IMG/VR virus record: IMGVR_UViG_3300036860_000042
Span: 1 to 24,622 of that record
DNA from: a virus
Strand: one strand, 5' to 3'
DNA length: 24,622 bases
A model generated the notes under the pieces. The model saw only the letters and a list, made by a program, of their open reading frames with translations, did not search any database and was not told where the DNA came from. Made by a program: the position numbers and the translations under genes. Positions within the stretch are counted from its first letter, which is position 1. The number at the start of each line of letters is the position of its first letter. This document shows positions 1,922 through 23,833 of the stretch, piece after piece.

Positions 1922-3538
1922 TTACCTCTGAAAGCTTGACAGCGGTGGACGGTTAGTGGGCGCGTCCATAGGCGCTCCCGTAACTCCCGCGCTACTCTTA
2001 ATAGGCTGCTGCTTAGCAGGCGCTGTACCTGTCTTAGGCGTCCCAAATGCCGTAGGAGGCGTTTTATTCCCTTTAGGCGTCTCAGGACGAAGGTATACTG
2101 ACGGTGTATCATACCGCTGCGACATTTCCCGCTGCTTGGAAATAAGTGTAGCCTGCATATCGTTCGCCAGCCCTCTAAAGTGAATTGGCGCGTTTACGTT
2201 AGACAAGTCACTAATAAGATCGGCTGCGGTAATCGCGTAGAATTGGACCGAACCTCCACCCTTCATTCCGCCAATTGCCGTATCGTAGCGGTTACGGGTA
2301 TTAGTAATATGCGCTTGAAGTTCCGCCAATTCCGGTCTAATAGATAACGCTCTAGTTGCTTGCATCATAGGCGCAATTACCTTGCCCAAGATTGGAATTG
2401 CTGCTGCCGCTTTTGGCCCGCCTAATTGCGCTGCCGCTATTTGTCGGTCTCTATCAGTAAGCTTTAACCCTTCAACTCTATCTGCCGCATTGCGCAGAGA
2501 GTTAATAGAGAACTCCATATCGCGGAGTTCTTTCATTTCAGCGTCAGTCGGCGGTTTCGCAATCCGTGTCCCAATTTCTCCGGGTTGTGGAAGCCGTGGC
2601 GGCGCGTGAAAGGCTTGATACGGGCCAGTATATCCCTTTGCGCCGGGCATAACTGACTGCCAGCCCTTTTGCTCAGGATCTATTTTTACAGTCGTTTGAC
2701 CGGGTGCTAAGCCTTCGCTTTTACTTTCCGGTACTAGATTACCAGACTGAACCGGCTCGCCCGGCTTAACAACTTTAGGCGTAAGAGGTTGCTGCGCCCC
2801 TCTAAGACTCAACGGAAAGCCGCCAAGATTGATTTGGTACATATCCGGCGTTTGAATCTGCCGCTGCATTGTATTTACAATTGAAGTATCGCGCTCATAC
2901 TTAGTATGCTCTTCCGGCGTAAGTGGAATTCCCGCAGCCTGCTTAGCCGTAAAAAACTGCATCCGTCCAACACGGGCGTTAAACTCTGCGCCACGCGCCG
3001 CTGGACCGCTTTTAGGCATTACCATTCCTTTAGCGTCGGTATGCAAGTAAATAGATCGGACGCCGTGCTCATAATCGTCTAGCGACTCTGGAATAATACC
3101 TTCTTGAATGCCCTTCGTCGCGGCAGCATTCTGGTCTAACATATGCTGCTGCTGAAGTTCTTTCAGCAACTCAATCGCTGCTGGCCCGCGCACTCCACCG
3201 CTGCGTAAGGCGCCTGCGTAAGCTTTAGCGCGGTTGCGCGTATCAGAGCTAGCAGTGTTATCTGTAGAAATCTGGTCCGCAATTCCACTCAACGCCTGCC
3301 CCTGCTGCTTCGCAACCTGTTCCTCTTGATACCCTTTCAAACCGCCAGCTTTCATGAAGTTCATAAACTCTGGCCCTGTACCTTCAGGAATTGGCGCTTC
3401 AGCCCCCGGCGCTAAACCCTGCTTCTGAAGATACTGCGCAAACTCCCCCTCACGCTGGCGTTGACGGCCTTCTTGCAGACCTTCTTTAACATCTTCTGTG
3501 AAGATGACTTCGCCGGTCTGAGGATTAACAGTAGGCAT
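1922..3538 (-). CDS. Putative internal virion/ejection protein
   Basis: A 538-residue protein starting MPTVNPQTGE, with its ATG overlapping the preceding stop as TAATG. It is Gln-, Ala-, Gly- and Pro-rich. The N-terminal half is charged and helical (KEGLQEGRQRQREGEF). There is a longer helical section around residues 335-470 (for example AEMKELRDMEFSINSLRNAA), and the tail is Pro/Thr-rich and probably disordered. No enzyme motif or signal peptide was found. Size, composition and position after the nozzle gene resemble podovirus ejection proteins that leave the capsid with the DNA, but I cannot align it to a named family. Function is inferred. Confidence 0.75.
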   Translation of the reverse strand: MPTVNPQTGEVIFTEDVKEGLQEGRQRQREGEFAQYLQKQGLAPGAEAPIPEGTGPEFMNFMKAGGLKGYQEEQVAKQQGQALSGIADQISTDNTASSDTRNRAKAYAGALRSGGVRGPAAIELLKELQQQHMLDQNAAATKGIQEGIIPESLDDYEHGVRSIYLHTDAKGMVMPKSGPAARGAEFNARVGRMQFFTAKQAAGIPLTPEEHTKYERDTSIVNTMQRQIQTPDMYQINLGGFPLSLRGAQQPLTPKVVKPGEPVQSGNLVPESKSEGLAPGQTTVKIDPEQKGWQSVMPGAKGYTGPYQAFHAPPRLPQPGEIGTRIAKPPTDAEMKELRDMEFSINSLRNAADRVEGLKLTDRDRQIAAAQLGGPKAAAAIPILGKVIAPMMQATRALSIRPELAELQAHITNTRNRYDTAIGGMKGGGSVQFYAITAADLISDLSNVNAPIHFRGLANDMQATLISKQREMSQRYDTPSVYLRPETPKGNKTPPTAFGTPKTGTAPAKQQPIKSSAGVTGAPMDAPTNRPPLSSFQR

Positions 3539-4134
3539 TATGTCCCGCCCTGACTAAGCCCAACGTCCATACCACCGCTAGGCTGCATACCCATATCTGA
3601 CGTATTAAGATCCTTATTACCACCTGTCAGACTATTCCAAATTGAACCAAACGACGGACCTTGATTGCCGCCCACTTGGCTCATTAAATCCTTTACGCCG
3701 CCGCCCGCAAGCTGGGGAATAATCCCTGCGCGCCCCGGCTGCGGAGTAGAAGTAACAGCAGGCGTACCGGGATGTCCATAAGCCTGTAGCGCACCTTGGC
3801 GCAGTTGATCCCTAGCTTGCTGTTGCATCTGCATCTGACCAAGCTTCCAATCCGCCACAGCCTTAGCCATCATAGCTTTAGCCGCTGGGCCAGTAACACC
3901 CCTCTCTCCCAACGCATTAGCCTGCTTATCAATCAACTCATTCATCTGAAGCTGCTGTAGTTGAGGATCGCCAAGCGCAAACGCGGGGTCACGAAGGGAA
4001 TTCTGATACTGCTGTGTCAGTCTATCTCCCATCTGCATGTTACGCATTTCCTGCTGCTGCATGAAAGCAGTCCTCGGGTCAGTCTGCTGAACCCTTGGCG
4101 GCGCGCCTGTAAGTCCTTCCATTGCTCCCGGCAT
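3538..4134 (-). CDS. Gln/Met-rich virion-associated protein with C-terminal GGMDVG motif
   Basis: A 198-residue protein with a strong ribosome-binding site (AAGGGG, 7 nt before ATG), starting 1 nt after the acetyltransferase stop. The first 130 residues are unusually rich in Gln and Met (FMQQQEMRNMQMGDRL, LGQMQMQQQARDQLRQ) and should be largely helical. A Gly/Pro-rich linker follows, and the end is SGGMDVGLSQGGT. The GGMDVG sequence is one of seven related motifs in this window. Together with the next two genes it forms a run of Gln-rich, probably internal virion proteins. I do not recognise a family and the role is inferred from context. Confidence 0.75.
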   Translation of the reverse strand: MPGAMEGLTGAPPRVQQTDPRTAFMQQQEMRNMQMGDRLTQQYQNSLRDPAFALGDPQLQQLQMNELIDKQANALGERGVTGPAAKAMMAKAVADWKLGQMQMQQQARDQLRQGALQAYGHPGTPAVTSTPQPGRAGIIPQLAGGGVKDLMSQVGGNQGPSFGSIWNSLTGGNKDLNTSDMGMQPSGGMDVGLSQGGT

Positions 4135-4135
4135 G

Positions 4136-4534
4136 TTAAATCCCCTTAATCCAATGAGTTAATTCTATATTATTGCTCTGGTAGCCGTGTCGCTTTAATG
4201 CCTTCCCGATACGCTTAGGTGCGGTCGTAGTAATTAATCTGACCCCACGCTCCAATAACATCTTCTCTGCAAACTGGCCCAACTTACGCGCGTTAGCATG
4301 GCTGCGGTAAGCGGGCTGAAGATACCAGTGGTCCAAGAATACCCACGGGAAGCCATTATCAAAGATATGTAATACGCCTACTAACTTACCGTCTACTTCA
4401 GCTACGATAACGTCTCGCGGCGGAAAGTTGGCGTAATTCTTAGCCATCCACTCTTTCCACTCAGGCGTAAAATCACTAAGCTGAGCGAGCATTTCTGGCG
4501 TATCAGTTTCAGGATTGTACTGACGAACTATCAT
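4136..4534 (-). CDS. GNAT-fold acetyltransferase-like protein (second of two paralogues)
   Basis: A 132-residue protein whose ATG overlaps the preceding stop as ATGA. The order of elements fits a GNAT fold: N-terminal RQYNPETDTPEML, strand DVIVAEVDGKLVGVL (about 41-55), strand/turn LDHWYLQPAY (67-76), then a helix ending in ERGVRL. The usual acetyl-CoA pyrophosphate loop (Q/RxxGxG/A) is replaced by RSHANARKL, so cofactor binding is uncertain. It resembles the other GNAT-like gene at 5209-5634 (shared RQYxPxxDTxExL, DxGxPxxxLDxxYLxPxY and RGxR), which implies duplication. The acceptor substrate is unknown. Its position in the virion block leaves open whether it acts on host molecules, on phage proteins, or is packaged. 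Confidence 0.8.
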   Translation of the reverse strand: MIVRQYNPETDTPEMLAQLSDFTPEWKEWMAKNYANFPPRDVIVAEVDGKLVGVLHIFDNGFPWVFLDHWYLQPAYRSHANARKLGQFAEKMLLERGVRLITTTAPKRIGKALKRHGYQSNNIELTHWIKGI

Positions 4535-4782
4535 CTGGCCCCTTTAAGAAGCTTAATGTAGTCTAAGTCTTGATCTGTCGGATTGGTAGGGTGCCCACCA
4601 ACCGCGTCATACTTCGTGCGCTGTTGTGGGTTCAGGCTCTCAACCTCTGGGTGCAATACTGTAGGCTGTGCAGCGCCCGTAGAAGCGGGCGCGGTCGGAT
4701 CAAGCCCCTTAGCAATATTCTCAATCGCCTGATTGGTCGCTCGATTGCGCGTTCTGATCCCTACAGTCATCCCGCTTTCCAT
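4531..4782 (-). CDS. Small protein with N-terminal SGMTVGI motif
   Basis: An 83-residue protein of unknown function. The start MESGMTVGIRTRNR overlaps the preceding stop as TAATG, and the stop overlaps the acetyltransferase start by 4 nt. The GMTVGI stretch lies at residues 4-9, the only case where this window's recurring GM-x-VG motif is N-terminal. The remainder is hydrophilic and Pro/Thr/Asn-rich and ends YIKLLKGAR. It contains no membrane segment and no cysteine. Tight coupling on both sides supports a real gene. Confidence 0.7.
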   Translation of the reverse strand: MESGMTVGIRTRNRATNQAIENIAKGLDPTAPASTGAAQPTVLHPEVESLNPQQRTKYDAVGGHPTNPTDQDLDYIKLLKGAR

Positions 4783-4991
4783 TACCTATATACCCCACTT
4801 CTGTATGGCGTCATTGATCTCCCTTGCGGAATACCAACGCCCATTCCACCTGATTGTGCGCCTGGGTCACGCAGCCGCTTTTCAGCCCTTATCTGCCCCG
4901 CTGTCATTGACTCTTTCTTCTTCTTACGCCGAGTACCTGGAGCAGGATTAGCCAAATCCGGCTCTTGCGTATCTCGCCCACTAACTGGCAT
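4782..4991 (-). CDS. Small basic protein with KKKK cluster and GGMGVGI motif
   Basis: A 69-residue protein. A longer frame opens upstream, but the start MPVSGRDTQE at 4991 is preferred because AGGAG lies 8 nt upstream and the longer version would run back through the upstream membrane-protein gene. A RRKKKK cluster occurs near residue 23 and AQSGGMGVGIPQGRS near residue 50. It overlaps the stop of the 54-residue membrane gene by 11 nt, and its own stop forms TAATG with the next gene. The combination of lysine cluster and GGM-x-VG is also seen at 17597-17809 and 18005-18202. Function unknown; the basic, probably disordered sequence could bind nucleic acid or a virion protein. Confidence 0.75.
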   Translation of the reverse strand: MPVSGRDTQEPDLANPAPGTRRKKKKESMTAGQIRAEKRLRDPGAQSGGMGVGIPQGRSMTPYRSGVYR

Positions 4992-5145
4992 TTGGATCTC
5001 TCCTATGACGCAATGCGCCCGTAACGTGATACCATCCGCCAAGCAATCCAATAACTAAATGTAATATACATACGCCTGCTGCGCACCAGTGAAATAGCTC
5101 TGCCTTACGATTACTTACCGGATGCTTTGGGAATGGATCTACCAT
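4981..5145 (-). CDS. Tiny single-span membrane protein (54 aa)
   Basis: A 54-residue frame starting MVDPFPKHPV, with GAGG 9 nt before the ATG. The middle is a hydrophobic helix (FHWCAAGVCILHLVIGLLGG, residues 18-37), followed directly by WYHV and a basic tail ALRHRRDPNAS. It overlaps the 51-residue gene upstream by 35 nt and the GGMGVGI gene downstream by 11 nt. A single inner-membrane span with a positively charged C-terminal side is predicted. It shares G-W-Y at the end of the helix with the tiny proteins at 7694-7831 and 18206-18286. Function unknown; a holin or other membrane accessory role is possible but unproven. Confidence 0.65.
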   Translation of the reverse strand: MVDPFPKHPVSNRKAELFHWCAAGVCILHLVIGLLGGWYHVTGALRHRRDPNAS

Positions 5146-5266
5146 TGGCGGTATCCTCAATCAGCGCCTTTAGAGTCTGCTCAACAATAAGTTCAAACGA
5201 TCCAAAGTCTATATTACGACTGACTTGCACAGCATCGGCTTCTCGCCCAGGTATTGCGCTTGCCAT
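5111..5266 (-). CDS. Small overlapping ORF, 51 aa, unknown
   Basis: A 51-residue frame beginning MASAIPGREA inside the 3' end of the GNAT-like gene. It is supported by a near-ideal ribosome-binding site (GGAGG, 5 nt before ATG) and by a plausible helical core, FELIVEQTLKALIEDTANGR. It overlaps the GNAT-like gene by 58 nt and the following membrane-protein gene by 35 nt, both in different frames. Without it, the stretch 5146-5208 would be the only uncovered gap in this densely packed block. No family recognised. The strong start site makes it more likely real than not. Confidence 0.55.
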   Translation of the reverse strand: MASAIPGREADAVQVSRNIDFGSFELIVEQTLKALIEDTANGRSIPKASGK

Positions 5267-5634
5267 TTAGCCCTCCGCTTGAGCAAGTCAACCGACTGCT
5301 CAGCTTCTCCGCCTGTCCCGTTCATTAACGCGTAGAGCCATCTGATTCCGCGCTGAGCACATAAAGCTTCCACATACACCATAACGTCCCGCAGAGTAGC
5401 GAACCGATTATAACGAGGGAGTAAGTAAAGCTGATCCAGGACTGCGTACGGTAATCCCCCATCCAGTAGAAAGGCAAACCCAACCACTCCATTATCTTCC
5501 TCGATAATGATTACATTATCTAAGTTAAGCCTATCAAAGTGCGCAAGCGTAAATAATGTTGTCCCATAACAGAGATTCCACAAGTCTAGTAATTGCTCCT
5601 TAGTATCCTTTGTAGGATCGTACTGTCTAATCAT
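5209..5634 (-). CDS. GNAT-fold acetyltransferase-like protein (first of two paralogues)
   Basis: A 141-residue protein starting MIRQYDPTKD, with its ATG overlapping the nozzle-like gene's stop as ATGA. GNAT-like elements in order: N-terminal strand/helix; strand VIIIEEDNGVVGFAFLL (41-57); LDQLYLLPRY (66-75) at the position of the central strand; helix LRDVMVYVEALCAQRGIRW. The canonical acetyl-CoA loop glycines are missing (NRFATLRD in their place). It resembles the gene at 4136-4534 in length, order of motifs and N-terminus, so the two are probably paralogues. Substrate unknown. Because the cofactor loop is degenerate, it may be a divergent enzyme or a repurposed fold. Confidence 0.8.
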   Translation of the reverse strand: MIRQYDPTKDTKEQLLDLWNLCYGTTLFTLAHFDRLNLDNVIIIEEDNGVVGFAFLLDGGLPYAVLDQLYLLPRYNRFATLRDVMVYVEALCAQRGIRWLYALMNGTGGEAEQSVDLLKRRAKWQAQYLGEKPMLCKSVVI

Positions 5635-7691
5635 GGGACTCGCTTTGTCGGTAGCGCGATAATCTCCACTGGCGGGAAGACTTCAAAGCCTGACCCACTA
5701 AACTTAACCTGTGCCCAACGTGATACACGCCCAAACAATACTCTTGCTTGCGAAGCTGCGGGCGCGTCAACAGGAAGGTCCATAATATCTTCATACGTGG
5801 CGCTGTCAAACTGGTGCGGATGCTGCGCGTAACGAATGCTTACGGTAAGTTCATTGTCTTCATGTCCAAACGTGGCGTACGGGACAATCAATCCTAACCA
5901 TTTAGTAAGCTTATCTTTACCCTCCCTTGCCATCCAAGGAAGTTGAACACTTGATTGAACGCCATCAAAGGGATTGGCTGGATTCTGCGAACCGACGCCC
6001 ATGCGGATAACGTCTTTACCGTCAAACCTAACGTATATAACTTCGCGCTCACCATTAATAATAGCTGGCACGGCAAAGTCTGCCACTTGCGTCATAGTGC
6101 TGGTCCAAACACCCTCACCTAACTCTTGCGAACGGACGAAATCTTCAATAACGCCAGTATTTACTTTTGACGGCGAGCCGGGCTTCTGTCTAAACCAGAA
6201 TCTAATTGTTTGCGTCTTTTCGTCAAATACGCCTTGCGTCCACCAGGGCTCAATAAGCCAAAGATCGCTCAGAAGATTAGCAATCTTACCTGACCCATAC
6301 GCCCGCCATGTTGCGCGAATTACATATATTCCTCTTTGCCAAAAGAAGAGTAATGCTCCATCAGGCGTTTCTACCATAGACTTATGGCTGTCAATCCCGT
6401 GCTCATTCGTGACCATTAACACTATAGGGTTGCCCGCAGCGTCAAGAGTAAAGGAAGATATGCTTGATGGAGTCCCTACGATAACTCCTGAACCTAACTC
6501 ACGTACAGCGGTGATACGATTAGCTTGCGAGAGCGCATTAACGCCGCCTGAGATTGTGGTAGCATTCTCAGGAGGGAACTCGTCTGGGAATAGCGCCCGT
6601 GACCAGTACAAGTTAGCAAGCGTAGGAGTTGTAGAGCCTGCTGTAGGCGCTCCCCCGCCAACAATGCGCGTCTTATGCCAAGTGGCAACCTGTAACGCTG
6701 GCGGGGCATTAGCGTAGAGGAAGTAGAGATCATCAAAGTAGACGACGTTTGCGCCATCATCGTTAAAGAAGGTAACGCGCTTTATGTCTGACCAAACAGG
6801 CGTTCCCGTTGTAGTAGCACTTGACCGCAATAGGCTGAATTGCTGCCAGCTAGCTGATGGTCCAACAGATTGAGTAAACTCGAAGTAATTGGCGTTAGCA
6901 TCATCGCCAAATCGTATCCGAACATTAGCTGTCCCAGCAGCTTTGAATACCTGAAAGTTGAGGAAGTCCGTTCCGGTAAAGTCTGTCCCGCCATAAGGGT
7001 AAGGACCGCTTAAGAAGTTCTTAGCAACAGTCCAGCTATTGAATGCATTACTACTAGCCGCGACTTGAAGTGATTGTGTGTGGACTCTGCTTCCCCCACC
7101 TGGAACTGATGCATCTGCTACGAATGTCCCACCTGTCCAGTTCTCGTCAGTAATCGTTGCGCCGACAGGACTAACAGGCTTGCTCCCTAACGGGAACATG
7201 AATGGGCGTGCTTCTCCTTGCGCAAGGAAGTGCTGCCCATACTTCATTGGCGCGTCGCGCCCGTTGAGTGTGATAAGCCACTGGTCGAATACCGTATGCG
7301 TCCAATACATTTCATTAGCGGTATTGTTGAAGCCACGCCTAACTATTGTTAGCGTACCGGGCGCTCCAATATCATACCGCCACACTGCGCCAGTATTAGT
7401 AGTAATAATTAAATGAGTACTGAATGTAAGTACATTAGCTACGTAAGTACTGAATGTAAAGGGCGCAACGAATACCGTATTGCCGTCTAGGTCAGCGAAT
7501 CTTACCGAGTCAAGCGATAGATCTGCTCGGATTGAACAGACGTGCGTCCCGCCTTGCGGAAGGCACCTAAGTAAGATGTTTGACGCATCGTCATATCCAC
7601 CTTTGGCAATATCTGAACGCGGATCTTCACGGTCAATCCCGCGCTCAAAACTGACAAAAGGCTCTTCAGGAAGTGTGGCTATGTGCGCCAC
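5631..7691 (-). CDS. Tail nozzle-like structural protein with inserted carbohydrate-binding-like domain
   Basis: A 686-residue protein with a GTG start (GTG GCG CAC), 2 nt after the stop of the tiny membrane gene. The N- and C-terminal parts look like a beta-propeller/nozzle (THLIITTNTGAVWRYDIG, VFDQWLITLNGRDAPMKY, and later LTKWLGLIVPYATFG), a layout I associate with short-tail nozzle or tail-tubular proteins that close the podovirus tail. An insertion at about residues 172-326 has jelly-roll features (NFQVFKAAGTANVRIRFGD, SWQQFSLLRS, VVYFDDLYFLY), like carbohydrate-binding modules. It lies downstream of the probable adaptor, as expected. The structural role is likely, the nozzle assignment moderate, and the domain type inferred. 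Confidence 0.75.
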   Translation of the reverse strand: MAHIATLPEEPFVSFERGIDREDPRSDIAKGGYDDASNILLRCLPQGGTHVCSIRADLSLDSVRFADLDGNTVFVAPFTFSTYVANVLTFSTHLIITTNTGAVWRYDIGAPGTLTIVRRGFNNTANEMYWTHTVFDQWLITLNGRDAPMKYGQHFLAQGEARPFMFPLGSKPVSPVGATITDENWTGGTFVADASVPGGGSRVHTQSLQVAASSNAFNSWTVAKNFLSGPYPYGGTDFTGTDFLNFQVFKAAGTANVRIRFGDDANANYFEFTQSVGPSASWQQFSLLRSSATTTGTPVWSDIKRVTFFNDDGANVVYFDDLYFLYANAPPALQVATWHKTRIVGGGAPTAGSTTPTLANLYWSRALFPDEFPPENATTISGGVNALSQANRITAVRELGSGVIVGTPSSISSFTLDAAGNPIVLMVTNEHGIDSHKSMVETPDGALLFFWQRGIYVIRATWRAYGSGKIANLLSDLWLIEPWWTQGVFDEKTQTIRFWFRQKPGSPSKVNTGVIEDFVRSQELGEGVWTSTMTQVADFAVPAIINGEREVIYVRFDGKDVIRMGVGSQNPANPFDGVQSSVQLPWMAREGKDKLTKWLGLIVPYATFGHEDNELTVSIRYAQHPHQFDSATYEDIMDLPVDAPAASQARVLFGRVSRWAQVKFSGSGFEVFPPVEIIALPTKRVP

Positions 7692-7693
7692 AA

Positions 7694-7831: not shown

Positions 7832-7834
7832 AGT

Positions 7835-8863
7835 CTACCACGCGCTCGTGATGCCAAACTCTTCAGCATCTTCCGTAACGCGTGACTCCTGGCCCTGACG
7901 CCTTCCAGCGGTCGGGCGTATAGATTCCTCTAAGCGCTTCAACAGGTCCATGGCAAACTTATCTGCTAGCTCAGGGTTGATTTTCTTGAGCATAAAGGCG
8001 GAAGTTAACTCTGCTATCCAGCGGTGAATGTCACGCGGTAACACAGGAACCATTGCCACAATCGCACTGGTAGCTGGCGCAATTGTCGCACTTGCAACCA
8101 TTACGGCAGCAGTATCGTTAGTAATACTGGCAATGCGCGGATAGTCCTTATTCATGCTAATTGTAGCGTTCTGAAGATCCTGATTACCGCTTGCTAACGT
8201 AATTAACTCAGCAGCATTCTGTGTATTCTCAGTAAAGATGTTATCAGTAACCCAAGTAGTCCCTGCGCCGGTTAGCGCTGTTCCAGCTTGCGTCACTGTT
8301 CCATTTAACGAGACATACAGCGGTCGCTTTAATGGTATATAGTCTATCTGGATGTTGAACGTTCCCGTAGTAGGCGGTACGAGCACAAGAGTGCGCCCGG
8401 CAATAAGATCGTAATGGAATACCAAACCATCAGGGGTATTGAGTAGGAGAGTATTGCCGCTAAGGTCGAATGCGCGCTGCTCATAATCTATCCAGTGGTA
8501 GGATTCCATTTCAGAGGGTAAGAATCTTACCGTTCTATTGTTCAAGCAGAGTATTCTAACCATCTCGCCAAAGTCAGCCGGTAAGGTCACTCTAACTGGT
8601 GAGGAGATTGACGAGCCGGTAAAGGTCAACGCAGTAGAGGGCGTATACGTCTCGCCATCACGCGTAAAGGGCGGGTCATCCTGTCTAACCGTGACCATGC
8701 CCCATTTCTGCCTAGCTAGCCGATAGCGCCTATATACCTCTTCATACGCCACGTTAACAACATCGACTACCTCTTCGTCTGACCATTGGCTAGACACAAC
8801 CCCGCCTGGTAAGATAGCATCCACCCCTAGGCGTGCCTTGCGGACCAGTTGAGCCAAGTTCAT
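7835..8863 (-). CDS. Probable head-tail adaptor (neck) protein
   Basis: A 342-residue protein; its ATG overlaps the repeat-protein stop as ATGA. The N-terminal pattern LVRKARLGVDA...WSDEEVVDVVNVAYEEVYRR (residues 6-46) is the helical signature I recall from adaptor proteins of the SU10/P22 gp4-like type, which join the portal to the tail. A beta-rich middle follows (VRVTLPADFGEMVRIL, IQIDYIPLKRPLYV), then a helical C-terminal segment (IHRWIAELTSAFMLKKINPELADKF). An Ala/Thr-rich stretch near residues 185-265 may be an insertion. It stands immediately before the nozzle-like gene, as expected for a neck component. Family assignment is from memory and not a computed match. Confidence 0.7.
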   Translation of the reverse strand: MNLAQLVRKARLGVDAILPGGVVSSQWSDEEVVDVVNVAYEEVYRRYRLARQKWGMVTVRQDDPPFTRDGETYTPSTALTFTGSSISSPVRVTLPADFGEMVRILCLNNRTVRFLPSEMESYHWIDYEQRAFDLSGNTLLLNTPDGLVFHYDLIAGRTLVLVPPTTGTFNIQIDYIPLKRPLYVSLNGTVTQAGTALTGAGTTWVTDNIFTENTQNAAELITLASGNQDLQNATISMNKDYPRIASITNDTAAVMVASATIAPATSAIVAMVPVLPRDIHRWIAELTSAFMLKKINPELADKFAMDLLKRLEESIRPTAGRRQGQESRVTEDAEEFGITSAW

Positions 8864-9561
8864 TGTATTGGTCTAACCTTATTCTGAGGGTCATTAGGGT
8901 TCGTATCGGTCAATATAGTCGTCCCGTCAGGTATCTTAGGAATAGGCATTGGCTGGTCATCGTGGCGCTCCCAGAATGCGGGCAACCATTTCTCTCTTAG
9001 TTTCCACCAGGTTGCGAAGATACCATTGAATGTAAGCGTACCGGCCAGTTTCTGCCCACCTACATTGATAAGTAGGGTTAGTGTGCCTGCAAATGTACCT
9101 ACCCCACTAGTAACCTTCCCCACGCCCTTCGTTAATGCCCCTGTAAGCGTCAAGGTGCCATCCAGTGCCCTTCTAAACGTCGCAGCAGTGGTTAGACTGC
9201 CTGAGAAGGTTAAAAGGCCGTCTAGGAGCTTCCCAACGCGTTTAGTGAGGTCTCCGCTAAAGCTGACTGACCCGGCTATCTGGAGTAGGAAGCTTGATAG
9301 GCTGGTCAGCGTGCCCACAAGGGTAAGTGTACCGGCCAATAACTTACCAACTAACTTACTTAACGCGCCCGTGAATGTTAGTGTACCGGCTAACTCTAAG
9401 ACATGCGCAGCTTGGGTAGTCAGCGTACCTACGAATGTTAACGTTCCAGCTAGTGACTTATTGACACGCTTACTTAATGCACCTGAAGTAGTTAGTGTTC
9501 CAGCTACATTCTGGAAGAATGTCTGTACGCCAGCGCCGCCAAGCTTAAGAAGTAATGACAC
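8860..9561 (-). CDS. GTLT-repeat virion protein
   Basis: A 233-residue protein with a GTG start (GTG TCA TTA). An ATG 2 nt upstream is in another frame. Residues 19-180 consist of tandem repeats that alternate between 18 residues (type LAGTLTFTGALSKLVGKL) and 20 residues (type LAGTLTFVGTLTTQAAHVLE). After a TWWKLREKWLPAFWERHDD segment comes a polar tail. The regular hydrophobic/Thr alternation suggests stacked beta-strands, as in a fibre shaft or beta-solenoid. I recall similar GTLT repeats in uncharacterised phage and metagenomic virion proteins. It lies between a LamG-like structural protein and the adaptor. Function unknown; a fibre or receptor-contact role is inferred. Confidence 0.75.
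   Translation of the reverse strand: MSLLLKLGGAGVQTFFQNVAGTLTTSGALSKRVNKSLAGTLTFVGTLTTQAAHVLELAGTLTFTGALSKLVGKLLAGTLTLVGTLTSLSSFLLQIAGSVSFSGDLTKRVGKLLDGLLTFSGSLTTAATFRRALDGTLTLTGALTKGVGKVTSGVGTFAGTLTLLINVGGQKLAGTLTFNGIFATWWKLREKWLPAFWERHDDQPMPIPKIPDGTTILTDTNPNDPQNKVRPIQ
9022..9507 (-). repeat. Coding tandem repeat, alternating 18/20-residue units
   Basis: About eight full units and one partial unit encode residues 19-180 of the GTLT protein, forming a 38-residue (114-bp) super-repeat. On the plus strand it appears as recurring short runs such as gtaagtgtaccggcc. Units have diverged at the DNA level but keep G-T-L-T at fixed positions. The unit at residues 151-171 has 21 residues, breaking the strict alternation. 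Confidence 0.85.
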
Positions 9562-9566
9562 ATTTC

Positions 9567-15102: not shown

Positions 15103-15113
15103 GTATAAACTAC

Positions 15114-16478: not shown

Positions 16479-16498
16479 CAGGACTGCTCAGGTTAATG

Positions 16499-17344
16499 TT
16501 ACTCTTCATCCCTTGAGGCAATCTTATCAAAGAACCTCGCGGATGCAGCCTTGTGAAATTCAGCACGCCCTTTTGGCGTACGAATATCAGGCTTATTTTC
16601 AGTCTTACTATCACTAGTCGCCTGCGGTTGTGCTTTACCGAATGGCGGCGTCTTAGTCACGGCAGAACGTTCTTGCCGCGACTTCTTCTCCCGCAGTCTT
16701 TGCGCAATATGCGGGGAAACGAGTGAGTTAAACACTTCGTCAATAATCTCTACATTACCGTTAACGAATGCTTCCTTAAGCTTAGGATTAGCATTGATGA
16801 CTTCTGTGATGGCACGCTCGAATGGGAATACCATCTTATTCATATCAGCATCAGTTGAAGCTTTGAAGCCCGCCTTACTCGCTAACTCTACCACTCGCTG
16901 ATGCGCCAACTGATTGACGCCGACTAACTGCTGGATCTGCACATTCTCAACTGTACCCGTCAGCCTATCTAGCGCCTGTGGGTCATTCTCTAGCATTTCA
17001 AGCGCTTTTCTGACGCCAGGCGGGCTAATCCGCTTCAAGTCTTCAAAGATAGCCTTATACTGCTTAGGGTCCGTCTGGTCGCCTTCACCGCTAATCGCCT
17101 TAATGATCTTATCAACGATAGCAGCTTGCTTAGTAACTGACTCGGTAGCCTTAATCTGCTCGCCCATCTTGGCGACAGTCTCTTTAAGGCCCGCAATCTC
17201 TGCCGCAGCCGGATCAACAGGCTTCTCGACAGGCTTTGCTGTAAGCGGATTGCCTTGCGGATCAAGCCCATACGGCGCATATGGGTTGTGCTCAGTAACT
17301 ACGGGTTGAACAACTGGTTGCGTTACGACTGTCTCTTCAGGCAT
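16499..17344 (-). CDS. Scaffold protein
   Basis: A 281-residue protein. The frame opens further upstream, but MPEETVVTQP at 17344 has an ideal AAGGAG 6 nt before ATG, so that start is used. It has the expected scaffold layout: a Pro/Val-rich disordered N-terminus (VVQPVVTEHNPYAPYG), a long charged coiled-coil middle (AAAEIAGLKETVAKMGEQIK), further helices, and a basic C-terminal end (RLREKKSRQERSAV ... ASARFFDKIASRDEE) of the kind that contacts capsid protein. It lies directly upstream of the capsid gene, the usual scaffold position. Confidence is from layout and position rather than a named family. Confidence 0.8.
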   Translation of the reverse strand: MPEETVVTQPVVQPVVTEHNPYAPYGLDPQGNPLTAKPVEKPVDPAAAEIAGLKETVAKMGEQIKATESVTKQAAIVDKIIKAISGEGDQTDPKQYKAIFEDLKRISPPGVRKALEMLENDPQALDRLTGTVENVQIQQLVGVNQLAHQRVVELASKAGFKASTDADMNKMVFPFERAITEVINANPKLKEAFVNGNVEIIDEVFNSLVSPHIAQRLREKKSRQERSAVTKTPPFGKAQPQATSDSKTENKPDIRTPKGRAEFHKAASARFFDKIASRDEE

Positions 17345-17365
17345 ACTAATCTCCTTTACGATTTT

Positions 17366-17401
17366 GGCGTAATCGGAGCCTACCTGAGTCTCCAATTCGC
17401 C
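17366..17401 (-). promoter_or_regulatory. Stable hairpin upstream of the scaffold gene
   Basis: In the 89-bp gap before the scaffold gene, GGCG-T-AATCGGAG (17366-17378) pairs with CTCCAATTCGCC (17390-17401). On the transcript this makes 12 base pairs including one G-U wobble, with a single bulged base and an 11-nt loop. No U-run follows on the transcript side. The scaffold AAGGAG lies just downstream. No convincing promoter was found in the same gap, so it could attenuate, protect or process the scaffold-capsid message. Confidence 0.5.
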
Positions 17402-17433
17402 GCTTGGAGTAGCGGGTTATAGTCTAATAATTA

Positions 17434-17595: not shown

Positions 17596-17596
17596 G

Positions 17597-17809
17597 TTAA
17601 AACCTCATTCCCACGGTCATCCCATTACCACGGACGCCGCCTTTGGTTGATCGTTTAGCGTTATCGCCCATTTTATCGACTGCGCCACTGATATCTTGAT
17701 TCTTCGTAGGCTTCTGCGTAACAGTGCCCATGCCCTCTTTGCGGGCTTTATTCTTCTTCTTCTTAGGCGTGAAGGCTTCCTGAGCGTACTGCGTGCCCAT
17801 TGAAGCCAT
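17597..17809 (-). CDS. Small basic protein with KKKK cluster and C-terminal GMTVGM motif
   Basis: A 70-residue protein. The start MASMGTQYAQ at 17809 follows the preceding stop by 2 nt and is preferred to an ATG 18 nt further upstream; the ribosome-binding site is weak. Residues 14-19 include PKKKK, the middle is Lys/Thr/Asn-rich, and the end is VRGNGMTVGMRF. The C-terminal motif matches those of six other proteins here. Its KKKK-then-GMxVGM plan is nearest to the protein at 18005-18202, suggesting related small proteins. Probably disordered; function unknown. Confidence 0.75.
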   Translation of the reverse strand: MASMGTQYAQEAFTPKKKKNKARKEGMGTVTQKPTKNQDISGAVDKMGDNAKRSTKGGVRGNGMTVGMRF

Positions 17810-17811
17810 TA

Positions 17812-18003: not shown

Positions 18004-18004
18004 T

Positions 18005-18202
18005 TTAGTATCCCTTTCCAGGATTCATCCCGACAGCCATTCCGCCGCGAGTGCCCCCATTTGATTTCTTCTTCTTCTTTGGATTAGAAGCAAAGTCGCT
18101 AAGTTGAGATTCCGACATGCCCGTCTGCGTCTTCTTGCCTGCCCGCTTACGGCCCAACTCCGCACCCATAAACCGCTGCTGCTTATCGCTGACCGCTGGC
18201 AT
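18005..18202 (-). CDS. DUF3008-like small basic protein with C-terminal GGMAVGM motif
   Basis: A 65-residue protein starting MPAVSDKQQRFMGAELGRKR; GGAAGG lies about 8 nt before the ATG. The opening MPAxSxKQQRFMGA and the later SxSQLSDFAS match my memory of the DUF3008 family of tiny phage and bacterial proteins; its function is unknown. A KKKKK cluster is followed by GGTRGGMAVGMNPGKGY. The family resemblance covers the first 45 residues and the motif tail appears to be an addition. It is part of the portal-scaffold small-gene cluster. Confidence 0.8.
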   Translation of the reverse strand: MPAVSDKQQRFMGAELGRKRAGKKTQTGMSESQLSDFASNPKKKKKSNGGTRGGMAVGMNPGKGY

Positions 18203-18205
18203 GAT

Positions 18206-18286
18206 TTAGCCCTTCCACCACTTACGAAGATACCAACCGGCATAGACAAGCGCGGCGGCGACGAGAAGGCTCATTGCGTGATACAT
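18206..18286 (-). CDS. Tiny single-span membrane protein (26 aa)
   Basis: A 26-residue frame starting MYHAMSLLVA, whose ATG overlaps the preceding stop as TAATG, so its expression is likely by re-initiation. Residues 4-19 are a hydrophobic helix (AMSLLVAAALVYAGWY), followed by a strongly basic LRKWWKG. It exactly fills the gap between two genes, and its end supplies the GGAAGG for the next gene. The GWY at the helix end and the basic tail match the tiny proteins at 4981-5145 and 7694-7831. Function unknown. Confidence 0.65.
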   Translation of the reverse strand: MYHAMSLLVAAALVYAGWYLRKWWKG

Positions 18287-18672
18287 TATGGTGTCTCCTT
18301 CATTGGATTGCGGTACCCCGCATCCTTCTTATTTTCAGGCTTACCTTCAGTCCACCCATTCTGACGATGCGACTTATGAACCTCTTGCTTGCCGTAGCCG
18401 CAATCAAGCGCGCCCAGCTTGGTCAACTTCTCAGCAGCCTGCGCAGCGGATTTAACATATCCCGGCGTCCCGGTCCCCTTGTTATAGCCGGGAACATTCG
18501 CGCCGTGTGTTGGACGGCCCTTATCGTCCCAACGGGCAGACGATTTGGCTTCCCGCGCTGCATCCATTACGTGCTTGCTGGTGCGCTTGCTACCAGACCG
18601 ATTCTCTTCAGTCTTGATTGCAGGCTGACCATGCTTACGCCATGTTGGTGTCTCGTACGTGTCTTTAGCCAT
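18286..18672 (-). CDS. Basic hydrophilic protein, unknown
   Basis: A 128-residue protein. MAKDTYETPT at 18672 is preferred to an ATG 18 nt upstream because it gives a short 8-nt overlap with the phosphatase stop and a GAG about 9 nt upstream. It is rich in Lys, Gly, Asn and Ser with almost no hydrophobic core (EENRSGSKRTSKHVMDAAREAK, GYNKGTGTPGYVKSAAQAAE). It has one helix around residues 70-90 and a single Cys. It is probably disordered or DNA-associated. No family recognised. Confidence 0.7.
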   Translation of the reverse strand: MAKDTYETPTWRKHGQPAIKTEENRSGSKRTSKHVMDAAREAKSSARWDDKGRPTHGANVPGYNKGTGTPGYVKSAAQAAEKLTKLGALDCGYGKQEVHKSHRQNGWTEGKPENKKDAGYRNPMKETP

Positions 18673-19288
18673 TCTTAGGCTCTCCCGCAACCCAGCGGTC
18701 GCGCTTAAAATTGAGTTCTACATATTGTCCGGGTTTGACCGGATCTTCGTCTTTAGCAAGCCATTTAGAAGGCGGCTGCGCGAACACGCCGCTTAGTCCG
18801 CTCTCTATGAATGTCAGAAAGACGCGAATATTGCGACTATGCGTAACTACTACAACAGGTTTATCACTAGTTAGCGCTTTGCTAGTAATCTTATCTATCG
18901 CCCCTTTGAAGCGGTGGACGAAAGAACTGAACGATTCGCCGTCGGGAGCCTTCTTACTAGAATTGACTACTAGCTTAGCAGCGTACTTACGCACGCGATC
19001 ATCAAGCGGAACTCCTGCTAACGCCCCAACGTCCCACGGACGTAACGCACGCATTTTTTCGAGAGGTGCGTTAAGAACTTCTTTAAGCTCGTCAGCAGTA
19101 TCACCAGCACGCTGCAAATCTGAAGTATAGATTTTAGATACGGTACCTAGCTTACTGAGCTTTTGAGCAACCTCTTTAGACTGCTGCTTACCGTGCGCAT
19201 CAAGCGGGACATCTTTCCATCCTCTAATCATTTCAGGAGAGGTATTCAACTTAGTCTCGCCGTGCCGCACGAGGATGATACGCGCCAT
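18665..19288 (-). CDS. Histidine phosphatase (phosphoglycerate mutase-like)
   Basis: A 207-residue protein starting MARIILVRHGETKLN; its ATG overlaps the portal stop as TAATG. The branch-1 histidine phosphatase signature is present: Arg8-His9-Gly10-Glu11 with His9 as the phospho-acceptor, a second Arg60 (SDLQRAGDTA), and His150 in VVVVTHSRNIRVF. The usual catalytic acid would fall around Asp86 (RPWDVGALAG). It is an enzyme gene set between portal and scaffold, an unusual location for a metabolic-type gene. Substrate unknown: a phosphosugar, nucleotide or phosphoprotein are all possible. Whether it is in the virion or acts in the infected cell cannot be told. Confidence 0.88.
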   Translation of the reverse strand: MARIILVRHGETKLNTSPEMIRGWKDVPLDAHGKQQSKEVAQKLSKLGTVSKIYTSDLQRAGDTADELKEVLNAPLEKMRALRPWDVGALAGVPLDDRVRKYAAKLVVNSSKKAPDGESFSSFVHRFKGAIDKITSKALTSDKPVVVVTHSRNIRVFLTFIESGLSGVFAQPPSKWLAKDEDPVKPGQYVELNFKRDRWVAGEPKNG

Positions 19289-21501
19289 TACGCAGTCTGT
19301 GGGCCAGCCGGTTGATTCGGGCCTGATTGAACCGCTCCGCTACTCATACCTGGTGCAGGCGGACTTGGCGCTTGCGGAACCATCATACTCATTTGCTGAT
19401 CCTGCTTATGCTGAAGCATATGCTGGAACATTATATTCTGGATCTGGTCAGGGAGCGCCTTAAACTCTTCAGTCAAACACAGCCTTCTGTGTGTAAGGAA
19501 GTGTAGAGAGTGTTCATCGACTAATGGATGCACCATAATTGGCTGGTCTGCCATAGGAGCCTGCGCCGCTTGCTGGCCTTCAGCGGTCATAATATTGCTA
19601 TTCATGATAGCTTGCGTAGCTTGCTGCGCCCACTGCATAAAGTCAGCATTCTCTTTATACGCGGCTTTGGTATCCTCTTGAACACCGGGCAGTAAGTTGG
19701 ACATTCCAACGTCTTCAAGAATCTTGATCTTCTGCGCCGCGTCAGCTAGGTTGAGAATGCCCGCTTGAGCTAGGTAGAGATAAGTTTGGAGCTTTTGCAT
19801 CTGCGTCTTAGGCCGCGCAGATCCAGCTTCCACCTGGATATCTACCCCATCATCCCAATCCGCCGCCATGAACTCTTGGAATGACCAACCACCGATTGCA
19901 TTCTTGACGGCCTTTACACGTGGAGAGTTAGCATTTTGCCGCCAGACTTCTAAGCTTATTCGGGCCAGATCCTCGTATCCCTCTTCAAGCTGGTCAAATA
20001 CCGTAGCCCAACGCCCGAAACCGCGCTCAGTAAGCTGCTGAACCGTGCTAGCAGGCGTACGAGTGCCAACCTGTCTGCCTCTGACCGCACTAAACGCTCC
20101 CGATAACTCATCAAAGGCGTTCCTTATATCAGCAATATACTTAACGAGTGATTGAGGAGCTTCTGCGCCGGGTACGCGCTGCGGACCAATTCCGCCCGCT
20201 CCAGGTGTATACTCAATCTGTAGCCCAATCTCGCCAGTGATTCTTGTTGGATTGCTATTCGACGGGATCAACCAGACTGGATTCGCCATCCGCGCCATGA
20301 TTAACGTAAACAGCGATTCAGCTTTGTTAAGCTGATACTGCTTAGGCAGCAAGTCGTCTGCTGGGGTGTATCCCCACGCGCGACCGCCAATCTCGCCGAA
20401 CTTGAACATAACCATCGGGTAGAACTTCTTACCGGTAACCTTACGCTGCCAAGGGAAAGGCGCTACTCTTTCAAGCATCTTCCCGGCTGCAGTCATCACC
20501 AGGTACGCGCCATCGGGATATTCCTTATGGTGCTTAATGAATGCGCGGTAGACAGTAATGCGATTCATTCTATCTTGCGCACTCAGAGCGCCAAGCGGGA
20601 GCGCAATCCCTGGACTCGCAAGCGTAGCAGCGTTCTCTTTGAACATCTGTCCAGTCCCAGCGTACTCGTAATCACTCTCTACATCTACCGACCACTGCAT
20701 TGCAACCTGTTCTTTCGTATAGGACTCAACTAACAGAATAAATGGATTCTCTTCCAGTTCGTCAATCGCAGGGTCAAGGTATACTTCAAACGGAGAGTGC
20801 GTATCAAAGCGGATTGATCCTCTAGGGACTGAAACTGCCATAGTTTCGGAATCGACGAGGATCTTATTCCCGCAAGAAGGGCACGCAGGGTTTGTCGGAT
20901 CAATCTGATCGGGCATAAACTCAGTATTACATTGCGTACACTTCTCGTAGGGAATCTCGTCCATCCCCGTCTCAGGACTGGAATCCCATACAACCTCAAC
21001 GAACGCGTTACCTGTAGGAATAAGCCAATCCAGCATTCTACGGCGCGCTTTACGAAAGCCGCCTTCCTCTAGAATGACTTGAAGCTGCTCATCCGCTGTA
21101 CTCGCTGCAGCAATCGCCTTTGGATCGTCTCGCATTGGTGTGCCAAGAAAGCGCGGCTCATGTTGCGCAATGGCTGACTTGACCGTATCAAGCGTAGCGC
21201 GGAATAGGTTAGTAATCGGCGTAGGCACGCTTGGCGAAAGCTTGCGCTGCCGCCAACGTCGCGCATTGGTGTCATAAACAACCCACTGTACTCCTAAAAG
21301 GTAGAGGATGTTTCCCCACCAGTTGCGCTCGACCAACCAACGCCTTTTACTAAGGCGTTCTTTAAGCTCTCGTACTAATGCTTGGTCAAGATTGGTTGCC
21401 GTCCCAGCCTGACCACCACCTTTAGACGCGTTAGACTCTTCGCGTGGAGCAGACGCACCTTTGCTCGCGCGCGTAGAGCTTACGATTTCGCTAGTCGGCA
21501 C
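19288..21501 (-). CDS. Portal protein (P22-type) with zinc-ribbon insertion
   Basis: A 737-residue protein with a GTG start (GTG CCG ACT); no closer ATG exists, because an in-frame stop lies just upstream. It has the size and pattern of P22-like portals, such as NWWGNILYLLGVQWVVYDT (60-78) and TPITNLFRATLDTVKSAIAQHEPRFLG, then a helical wing/stem region and a Pro/Gln/Met-rich C-terminus. Between about residues 186 and 215, four cysteines (188, 191, 207, 210) form CxxC...CxxC, a probable zinc ribbon in the clip/wing part. It lies after TerL and a small coiled-coil gene, the usual packaging order. The portal forms the dodecameric DNA gate. Confidence 0.88.
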   Translation of the reverse strand: MPTSEIVSSTRASKGASAPREESNASKGGGQAGTATNLDQALVRELKERLSKRRWLVERNWWGNILYLLGVQWVVYDTNARRWRQRKLSPSVPTPITNLFRATLDTVKSAIAQHEPRFLGTPMRDDPKAIAAASTADEQLQVILEEGGFRKARRRMLDWLIPTGNAFVEVVWDSSPETGMDEIPYEKCTQCNTEFMPDQIDPTNPACPSCGNKILVDSETMAVSVPRGSIRFDTHSPFEVYLDPAIDELEENPFILLVESYTKEQVAMQWSVDVESDYEYAGTGQMFKENAATLASPGIALPLGALSAQDRMNRITVYRAFIKHHKEYPDGAYLVMTAAGKMLERVAPFPWQRKVTGKKFYPMVMFKFGEIGGRAWGYTPADDLLPKQYQLNKAESLFTLIMARMANPVWLIPSNSNPTRITGEIGLQIEYTPGAGGIGPQRVPGAEAPQSLVKYIADIRNAFDELSGAFSAVRGRQVGTRTPASTVQQLTERGFGRWATVFDQLEEGYEDLARISLEVWRQNANSPRVKAVKNAIGGWSFQEFMAADWDDGVDIQVEAGSARPKTQMQKLQTYLYLAQAGILNLADAAQKIKILEDVGMSNLLPGVQEDTKAAYKENADFMQWAQQATQAIMNSNIMTAEGQQAAQAPMADQPIMVHPLVDEHSLHFLTHRRLCLTEEFKALPDQIQNIMFQHMLQHKQDQQMSMMVPQAPSPPAPGMSSGAVQSGPNQPAGPQTA

Positions 21502-21781
21502 TTGGGGTCAAAGCCTCTTCAATATCTCTCACGTTTGGAATTTCATCCGCTGCGGGTGTCATCCATTCGTCAGGTAGTTTGTCATTTTCAGCATAGGGGT
21601 CACGCTCGAAGTCTACTTGCTGAAGGGGCCTGCCCCCAATCGTGCTTCCCATAGTCATAACAATGCGCTTGAAGTCTGCATAGAGTGTGTCGTATTCAAG
21701 TCGGAGGCGCTCATGCGCACGCCGCTCGGCGGCTAGCTCTGCTTGAAGGACAGCTATCTCACCAGATTTCGTCTTCCACAT
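21491..21781 (-). CDS. Coiled-coil protein between TerL and portal
   Basis: A 96-residue protein that overlaps the TerL 3' end by 23 nt and the portal GTG by 11 nt. The first 45 residues form a charged heptad helix (EIAVLQAELAAERRAHERLR), followed by a Pro/Asp/Glu-rich, probably disordered tail ending EEALTPSAD. No motif recognised. Position and the coiled coil suggest an assembly or packaging accessory protein; weak evidence for function. Confidence 0.75.
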   Translation of the reverse strand: MWKTKSGEIAVLQAELAAERRAHERLRLEYDTLYADFKRIVMTMGSTIGGRPLQQVDFERDPYAENDKLPDEWMTPAADEIPNVRDIEEALTPSAD

Positions 21782-23300
21782 TTCTCATGTCCGTATCGTC
21801 GCGTCGGTCGGTATCTTGCAACTCGTCATCATAGCCGGGCGTGACGATTGACTCATTCCCTTTGCGCATCGGGAGCGTACGCCTAAACTCTTCCCAATGC
21901 CGGTACGAGCCTTCATCAAGTCCATCTGCAATATCAAATGCCTGCCGAATTTCCCTTATGTCAACCGCAACTACCTTAGTTGGAATAAGGGATAACGCAT
22001 ACCCGCCCGCGTCAACTGCGTGGAAGCTTGATTTAGCGGCTATCTTCAACGCTCTATTTCCACTATCCCCGACGATCTGTCCCTTAAGGCGATAGCTAGG
22101 GCCTTGTCGTATGAGGTTTGTGCATCGTTGAGATACCGTAAGCCCTCGTCTGTGAGCGTTAATATACAGCATGACTCTGGCCCATTCATCGCCTTGACTC
22201 GGCACAACGGGCAATCCCGCTTGGACGTACAAGTCTGCCACTGATATGCTGCCGTGTTTCTTAGACATGAAAGAAGCAGACCAGGAAGTGCGATCCATAA
22301 TCTGAGCGCGAGGGTTGTACGGGTAATTGATCTGCCGAATCGCGTCAGCGTGGAGTTCAGCGTCTCTACCCTCTGCCCAATACTCTGCGTAAAAGTGTGG
22401 CGCATTGGGATTTACGCCTTTCCAAGCTTCTTTATCAGGATTAACGGTAACCCATAACGCGGCAGTAACACCAGATGATCTAGCCGGGTCAATCCCAACC
22501 CACCTAGGCCAATGTCCGGGAATGTCAAATGGTTCAACTATTCTCCATCCTGGTAACAGTCTGCTTGATCCCGCTTCCATCAATGCATAAACATAACGTC
22601 TTTGCATTTCTGGCGGCAGCATTAAGTATTGCGCGCGTATCCCTTCATCAAGGTGCGGATTCTCCAACGCCGAACCGCGCACAAGCTTGCGTGAGGCGTT
22701 AAGCGATGGCCGACCGTGCGGGGCTTCGTACGTGAGAAAGCGCTGTCTGATCCAGTTGTCTCCTTCGTCGTTTCCAACACTGACGACGTGTCTTTCAGAC
22801 GCAGGAGCCGCTGTAAGTCTACACCGAAGTAGGAGGATCTGGTAGACATCAAACTCTATTTCTTCAACCTGGTCAACGAAGATAAATGAGTATTCAACGT
22901 TCTTATGCTTATCAATTGATTTGTCGAGGTTAGTAAAGAAGAACTCTGACCCGTTTGACATACGGGCATAATTTGTACCTTCCCGAACGTCCCATACTCT
23001 AGGCTTGACAAAGTATTTCTGTAATCCCTTCTGCTTGACTATCTCGAAGAACTGGTGTTTCGTTGACTCGATTAGCTCTTTGTACGTGAAACGCGCAATG
23101 AGTACTCTTGCTCCCGGAAACTTCGCGGCATGGCGAATAGCTGCCACGCACGCTGCGTACGTCTTTCCGGCACCCATTCCCCCGACTGCACATACTTCGT
23201 ATTCCTTAGCTAATATGAGTTCTGGTTGGAGCGGGTGGTACTTGTCACCTAGTAGATGCTTAAGTGACAGTTCACTTTCTGTCGGATTAGGTGCCGACAC
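21759..23300 (-). CDS. terL: Terminase large subunit
   Basis: A 513-residue packaging motor with a GTG start; an in-frame stop sits directly upstream, so no longer form is possible. The ATPase part has Walker A GGMGAGKT (40-47) and a Walker B-like FIFVDQVEE (139-147), in which the usual DE pair reads DQVEE. The nuclease part has GIDPARSSG (Asp271), QIMDRTSW (Asp336) and SSFHAVDAGG (Asp430), the usual acidic triad. Length is close to the family norm. It follows the two small proline-rich genes rather than the small terminase directly. It overlaps the upstream gene by 14 nt and the downstream gene by 23 nt. Works with the portal and small terminase to pump DNA. Confidence 0.92.
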   Translation of the reverse strand: MSAPNPTESELSLKHLLGDKYHPLQPELILAKEYEVCAVGGMGAGKTYAACVAAIRHAAKFPGARVLIARFTYKELIESTKHQFFEIVKQKGLQKYFVKPRVWDVREGTNYARMSNGSEFFFTNLDKSIDKHKNVEYSFIFVDQVEEIEFDVYQILLLRCRLTAAPASERHVVSVGNDEGDNWIRQRFLTYEAPHGRPSLNASRKLVRGSALENPHLDEGIRAQYLMLPPEMQRRYVYALMEAGSSRLLPGWRIVEPFDIPGHWPRWVGIDPARSSGVTAALWVTVNPDKEAWKGVNPNAPHFYAEYWAEGRDAELHADAIRQINYPYNPRAQIMDRTSWSASFMSKKHGSISVADLYVQAGLPVVPSQGDEWARVMLYINAHRRGLTVSQRCTNLIRQGPSYRLKGQIVGDSGNRALKIAAKSSFHAVDAGGYALSLIPTKVVAVDIREIRQAFDIADGLDEGSYRHWEEFRRTLPMRKGNESIVTPGYDDELQDTDRRDDTDMRNVEDEIW

Positions 23301-23595
23301 TCATTCCGCCCAGCTTTTGCTGCTGCTGTGGATCAACCATCAATCCACCCGTAGCACTAGACTCTTTATACTGGCCCATTGGTGTAATAAGCGGACTTGC
23401 GTTGCTGCCTGGTAATGGCGTGCTTGACGGAGTAGGTTGTGCCAATTCGGGCGGCATAGGCGGCATTTGGCTCGCCTGACGCTGCTGCTGCTTGGCAAAC
23501 TGACTCTGTTGCGACCGCTGCTCAGATGCATTATACATCTGGGCACCGACGCCAAGAAGTCCAATCACGGCTGGGATAGCGGCTGCGGCTGGCAT
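23287..23595 (-). CDS. Pro/Gln-rich small protein with one hydrophobic helix and C-terminal GGMSVG motif
   Basis: A 102-residue protein. The start MPAAAAIPAV at 23595 is preferred to one 27 nt upstream because it sits just after the previous stop. Residues 2-22 form a hydrophobic helix (PAAAAIPAVIGLLGVGAQMY), then a Gln-rich segment (QRSQQSQFAKQQQRQ), a Pro-rich linker and the end KLGGMSVGT. A similar MPAAAxxP hydrophobic opening is common in small phage internal or ejection proteins as I recall. The stop lies inside the TerL start region (14-nt overlap). It is unusual to find such a gene inside the terminase pair. Confidence 0.75.
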   Translation of the reverse strand: MPAAAAIPAVIGLLGVGAQMYNASEQRSQQSQFAKQQQRQASQMPPMPPELAQPTPSSTPLPGSNASPLITPMGQYKESSATGGLMVDPQQQQKLGGMSVGT

Positions 23596-23596
23596 A

Positions 23597-23833
23597 CTAA
23601 ATTCCGACTCCCATGCCCCCATACGGGCTGTTACGTTTCATAGCATCTTCGTTAGGCATCGTCATTCCCGCTGCTTGCTGCGCCATCTGACCCGGCGTTC
23701 CCAGCAATCCCGTTGACGGCTGATTCGGGTGCAAGGGAGTCGTTGTCTGGGTAGTCGTGCGCCCTGTCATCACCGGAGGGGGCGGAGGCATCGACGGCTG
23801 CTGCGGCATTTCGGGGCTGAACATCTGAGGCAT
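23597..23833 (-). CDS. Proline-rich protein overlapping terS, C-terminal GGMGVGI motif
   Basis: A 78-residue protein starting MPQMFSPEMP in a different frame from the small terminase, whose 3' end it overlaps for 182 bp (23652-23833). The start is backed by AAGGA 8 nt before ATG, inside terS. It is Pro/Gln/Thr-rich, with a PPPPP run near residue 18 and a middle QTTTPLHPNQPSTGLLG, and ends PYGGMGVGI. That motif is shared with six other proteins here, which makes it unlikely to be a chance frame. Function unknown; probably disordered. Confidence 0.75.
   Translation of the reverse strand: MPQMFSPEMPQQPSMPPPPPVMTGRTTTQTTTPLHPNQPSTGLLGTPGQMAQQAAGMTMPNEDAMKRNSPYGGMGVGI

Follow-up and report, generated by a model that had tools for sequence, protein, structure and literature searches.

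In phage T4, several internal proteins are brought into the prohead by a short common peptide, the capsid targeting sequence, which is N-terminal and is cut off by the gp21 protease. Encapsulins are related to HK97-type phage capsids. To our knowledge, little is understood of how podoviruses choose the small internal and ejection proteins that enter their heads. Here we describe a peptide motif with the core Gly-Met-x-Val-Gly that recurs in seven small, otherwise unlike proteins of the virion module of a tailed phage, IMG/VR record IMGVR_UViG_3300036860_000042. The window, i.e. the whole stretch of DNA analysed, is this 24.6-kb virus record (24,622 nucleotides), perhaps a fragment; all genes discussed lie on its minus strand. 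The motif is a real, lineage-specific, protein-level tag. With a probability of about 0.62, we read it, in the form [SG]-G-M-x-[VI]-G, as a short linear docking tag by which one shared receptor would recruit small virion-module proteins into the assembling particle.

Targeting peptides of Family 1 encapsulins, for instance NTGGDLGIRK, DGSLGIGSLKG and PLTVGSLRRGG, dock into a hydrophobic pocket through two hydrophobic residues separated by one other and are carried on flexible linkers of 10-20 residues (PMC7925596). The N-terminal helix of the shell protein contributes to this pocket, and an N-terminal targeting peptide has precedent (PMC8346489). The phage motif shares much of this anatomy: a short peptide, for the most part C-terminal, attached by a flexible linker, Gly or Ser followed by two hydrophobic residues one apart (compare LGI and LTV) and often by Gly, several different putative cargoes for one shell, N-terminal variants (here SGMTVGI) and a shell protein of predicted HK97 fold. 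The statement in the preliminary description of this DNA that no named signal fits was too strong, as Gly-hydrophobic-x-Val/Ile-Gly at a flexible end is similar to the Family 1 peptide. The phage motif differs in having Met where the encapsulin peptide has Leu, and whereas the encapsulin shell gene stands alone, portal, terminase and tail genes are present here.

The T4 signal is likewise a short peptide common to several proteins, but it is N-terminal, as is only one of the seven copies in the window, and no prohead protease was recognised among the scanned gene products, many window genes being without annotation. In T7, loop I of gp6.7 encircles the portal barrel, and residues 84-98 of gp7.3, its C-terminal loop, lie at the adaptor-nozzle junction (PMC11784390). 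As here, these are small proteins encoded near head genes, with short docking loops in T7; however, each T7 protein has a loop of its own, there is no tag common to many, and the Met-x-Val-Gly core is absent. The scanned carriers gave no Pfam match to the T7 small-protein families, a test that short disordered proteins can escape.

Occurrence and position of the motif

The seven peptides named in the preliminary description are all in frame in their open reading frames (ORFs). The pattern GM.VG has exactly these seven sites in the window, each in the frame of a small minus-strand ORF, and none elsewhere in the six reading frames. When the residues of the 35 gene models of the window were permuted in 5,000 shuffles, the strict motif reached a mean of 0.005 against seven observed, with no shuffle attaining seven, and GM.VG reached a mean of 0.10 and a maximum of 4 against seven. 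Chance or composition as the source of the motif is ruled out by these residue shuffles. All four valine codons are used across the seven copies (GTC, GTC, GTC, GTG, GTT, GTA, GTT) and the glycine codons vary likewise; these silent positions are free, and conservation is therefore at the level of protein, not DNA. A DNA-level element such as a promoter or ribosome site is ruled out by the same variation.

The copies fall into three slots, two before the gene for the terminase large subunit (TerL), two between portal and scaffold and three after the nozzle. In slot 1, the motif is exactly C-terminal in both carriers, a protein of 102 residues from the start at 23287-23595 (GGMSVGT, 23290-23310), whose N-terminus AAAIPAVIGLLGVGAQ.. 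resembles T7 gp14-type N-termini by eye, and a Pro/Met-rich 78-residue product at 23597-23833 (GGMGVGI, 23600-23620). The carriers of slot 2 are a 65-residue protein with a weakly DUF3008-like body (18005-18202; GGMAVGM, 18026-18046, six residues before the end) and a small basic protein (17597-17809; NGMTVGM, 17606-17626, two residues before the end). Slot 3 comprises a 69-residue protein (4782-4991; GGMGVGI, 4830-4850, 15 residues before the end), an 83-residue protein with an N-terminal copy (4531-4782; SGMTVGI, 4756-4776) and a 198-residue protein of the position and size of T7 gp14 (3538-4134; GGMDVGL, 3556-3576, five residues before the end). To refine the preliminary description, two copies are exactly C-terminal, a further three are followed by 2-6 residues and one by 15, and one is at the N-terminus, i.e. 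five of seven are no more than six residues from the C-terminus. Apart from the weak DUF3008 likeness of the 65-residue carrier, no carrier could be assigned to a family with confidence. The sequences preceding the tails are linkers mostly rich in the disorder-promoting residues K, P, S, G and Q.

Relaxing the pattern yields an eighth copy further on, SGLNVGL (1155-1175), 24 residues before the end of a 278-residue protein (1080-1916) which comes after putative internal virion proteins and is itself probably one of them. The genes anchoring the slots are terL (21759-23300, by homology), the portal gene (19288-21501; PHROG portal, E 4e-30), a scaffold candidate assigned by its position between portal and capsid (16499-17395; homologues of approx. 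41% identity), which has a conserved C-terminus of its own and not the motif, and a nozzle-like tail protein (5631-7691) with a weak PHROG tail match and 51% identity over 258 residues to a protein of contig L031.

Conservation in related phages

A clade of relatives was gathered from viral contigs in searches with the TerL, portal and capsid proteins, with identities from 52% (TerL) and 56% (portal), and lineages with enough sequence were inspected; a search of bacterial genomes found no relatives. Twelve related contigs mostly retain the motif, and they do so in the three slots that correspond to the clusters of the preliminary description. Slot-1 tails read GGMGVGV, GGMQVGV, GGMSIGT, GGMGIGV, GGMGVGTGTV, GGMNVSAT, GGMVIGV and SGLRIGV, slot-2 tails GGMGVGMNPGGGY, HGMTVGLRF, GGMGVGR, GGMSIGFPA, GGLSIGM, GGMSVG, GGMSVS, GGMNVTSTG.. 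and GGFGVK, and slot-3 tails GGMGVTP.. and GGWGVGR. Exact-pattern searches with the nozzle protein found no relatives, so that slot 3 was compared in two lineages only; here, the positional counterparts of the 198-residue carrier have 194 residues (G001, GGMGVT) and 185 residues (G003, GGWGVGR). L011 and G002 have degenerate slot-1 ends only (GGMAAF and NGGFTLY). Homologues of the 23287-23595 protein in L004 and L005 have bodies 53-55% identical and the tails GGMGVGV and GGMSIGT.

Degeneration is confined to M to L, F or W, V to I, and G to S, T or K. Among 30 listed sites, which were gathered by the pattern itself so that the counts describe and do not test, position 0 is M in 25, L in three, F in one and W in one, position 2 is V in 24 and I in six, Gly precedes at -1 in all, and position 3 is G in 25 and otherwise S, T or K. 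VG is most often followed by V, M, L, I or T, and no listed site continues into SL[KR].

A fixed pattern, G[ML].[VI][GST] within the last 25 residues of gene-like ORFs, separates the clade from its outgroup. Matches number 21 among the 409 ORFs of the clade (shuffled mean 1.7, maximum 8), or 17 among 372 when the window is left out (shuffled mean 1.6, maximum 8); the lineages of the clade are not wholly independent of one another. In contrast, a single match among 792 ORFs was found in 34 outgroup contigs, below the shuffled mean of 3.0; the outgroup consists of contigs whose capsid proteins are at most approx. 39% identical, and of HTVC115P, HMO-2011 and MW202554. At least two clade matches look like chance (G003 22138-22506, in a tail protein, and G005 8180-8341), but the contrast with the outgroup is still large. 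No tails of the motif type were found in HMO-2011, HTVC115P or the 37%-capsid relative MW202554. An unbiased scan for the exact pattern at C-termini in viral contigs returned 47 stretches, approx. ten of which end an ORF of at least 35 residues, and two of these belong to the clade (L004, and L002/L046, near-identical to the window). A universal phage motif is ruled out by the outgroup rarity and by these few ORF-end matches. One of the other ORF-end matches is in the portal protein of an unrelated phage (L036:5123-7261), with the C-terminus GGMGVGQ, which may be chance or convergence.

In slot 2, the tail has been kept while the body changed. The carrier of the window has the DUF3008-like body MPAVSDKQQRFMGAELGRKR..., whereas those of L004 and L005 have a different one, MPLSKYNAQFGGKPGAAAKAKS...VFYATKNK..., and the tail of all three is RGGMxVGMNPGxGY or a slight extension of it. 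Without their tails, the bodies are alike only marginally, through lysine-rich sequence (30% over 40 residues, E 0.003 from a very small database and uncorrected for composition). The VFYATKNK-type body also occurs in L012, with the end GGFGVK, and in G001, with the end GGMSVG. Retention of the slot-2 tail on a changed body is what a portable tag predicts. The motif is real, lies at the level of protein sequence, is conserved in position across divergent relatives and is kept when the body changes.

The motif-bearing ORF at 23597-23833 lies, as the preliminary description had not recognised, mostly inside the gene for the terminase small subunit (terS, 23652-24275; PF10668, E 5e-5), overlapping the disordered terS tail out of frame by 182 nucleotides. 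The same nested arrangement is present in L004 and L005, and the start is conserved in all three (AAGGATGA..TAGATGCC, with a Shine-Dalgarno-like AAGGA and a stop-start TAGATG). Over the first 150 nucleotides of the small ORF, L004 and L005 differ at 4, 4 and 12 sites by codon position in its frame. Because of this pattern and the conserved start, the ORF looks like a real nested gene.

Candidate receptors and alternative explanations

In the preferred reading, several small proteins that are otherwise dissimilar carry the tag, for the most part on a flexible C-terminal end; its Met and Val, one residue apart, would enter a receptor groove, with the glycines serving as a hinge. The cargo would probably consist of internal proteins or ejection proteins, and of small assembly factors. 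That the tag binds, which protein receives it and that its carriers are part of the virion are what we infer from these sequences. Among the roles listed in the preliminary description, the data best support a shared signal for docking, packaging or targeting, the motif being non-compositional, slot-conserved and absent from outgroups. It withstands both refuting conditions of that description, a frequency equal to that in proteins of like composition and a lack of conservation in homologues. Cleavage found no support: in many cases the protein ends with the peptide, the gene products scanned included no recognisable protease and the following residues are not conserved.

The likeliest receptor would be the inner face of the HK97-fold major capsid protein (15114-16424; PHROG major head protein), in the manner of encapsulin cargo loading; given a docking tag, we place this site somewhat short of even odds. 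A portal or core site is nearly as likely, and the capsid is ranked first because of the anatomy of the encapsulin peptides and because the N-terminal helix of the capsid model aligns to encapsulins. The capsid protein had no credible sequence relative in the Protein Data Bank. An AlphaFold2 model from 24 sequences, which replaced one from eight close sequences (predicted local distance difference test, pLDDT, 37), has pLDDT 78 and a predicted template modelling score (pTM) of 0.74, with an HK97 fold according to Foldseek and a predicted N-terminal helix at residues 5-26. Family 1 encapsulin shells have an N-terminal helix in place of an N-arm. In VIA-align, these encapsulins score Z approx. 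15-18 against the capsid model and phage capsids up to Z 19, with rows no more than 1 Z unit apart counted as ties. The encapsulins align from residue 1-5, the N-terminal helix included, whereas most of the listed HK97-type phage capsids align only from approx. residue 20-26. For the predicted structure, this shows shared topology, not closer kinship.

Several points weigh against this reading. The carriers' place in the virion is deduced from gene position for proteins without functional annotation. The phage motif lacks the GSL followed by Lys or Arg with which encapsulin peptides continue; for this reason, and because the shell here is the capsid of a phage, we do not assign the motif to that peptide family. 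Within the capsid model, residues 1-10 have a pLDDT of 58, and a monomer model need not reflect the assembled state. The motif is missing from phages whose capsid proteins are 33-39% identical, though their capsid N-termini are alignable, and the N-terminal helix alone is therefore not predictive of it. Since portal and TerL are conserved in the same clade, the comparison is unable to single out the capsid, and clade-specific capsid conservation indicated no particular pocket.

The rival that survives best, possible if on balance unlikely, is that the tag docks its carriers on the portal, the internal core or the adaptor-nozzle ring, the carriers being ejection-core and tail-gate proteins rather than shell cargo. 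The short docking loops of T7 gp6.7 and gp7.3 (PMC11784390) set a precedent, slots 2 and 3 adjoin portal and nozzle, the 198-residue carrier is in the gp14 position, and the ends of T7 gp7.3 (GGGINI) and phiKMV gp29 (TLGINY) show, by eye, a loose likeness to the motif. However, one ring with 6 or 12 positions would have to serve seven or eight different carriers, T7 and phiKMV have one such tail each, without the Met-x-Val-Gly core, and HTVC115P and HMO-2011, whose terminases are alignable, lack the motif.

A shared docking tag, if true, would make anonymous small virion genes predictable from sequence alone and provide a ready-made packaging handle. If its receptor were the portal, it would mark a common docking site for the ejection machinery; if the capsid protein, encapsulin cargo loading would be connected with HK97-type phage capsids as a mechanism still used by a virus. 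An encapsulin-style modular code in a tailed phage lineage, with one peptide loading seven or eight small proteins inside the capsid protein shell, is about as probable as portal docking.

It is improbable that the tails are homologous through duplication or recombination of small-gene ends and have been retained through descent or drift, without any receptor in common. Neighbouring slots could swap ends, and a weak, low-complexity similarity exists among the 111-, 78- and 198-residue carriers; but silent-site codons and linkers differ between the copies, and across lineages with TerL proteins 52-62% identical the motif persists and the linkers do not. Least probable of all is a processing or modification site, for a protease or for a GNAT-like acetyltransferase of the module, since despite a clear GNAT gene (Pfam E 5e-9) and a similar-sized neighbour among the slot-3 carriers the motif contains no lysine or other fixed modifiable residue, often has nothing after it to cleave off, and occurs in G001 and G003, whose gene lists showed no acetyltransferase-like gene on inspection.

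Neighbouring genes

Directly after the portal gene, a histidine-phosphatase-like protein with an RHGET motif (18665-19288; PHROG 12933, unknown function) is encoded, which is conserved in L004, L005, L018 and L020. A 233-residue protein (8860-9561) consists of repeated LAGTLTFxGxLT-type units and has no PHROG match. In the relatives, small HNH-type or homing-endonuclease-like ORFs were seen by inspection at differing points of the virion module (L003:2019-2369, L005:9806-10261, L018:11416-11823 and L025:7782-8099). The GNAT acetyltransferase and its similar-sized neighbour occupy 4136-4534 and 5209-5634, in the interval between the nozzle and the internal proteins. Acetyltransferases are found near head genes in phiKMV and SP6 too, and HTVC115P has an annotated acyltransferase after a nozzle-sized gene.

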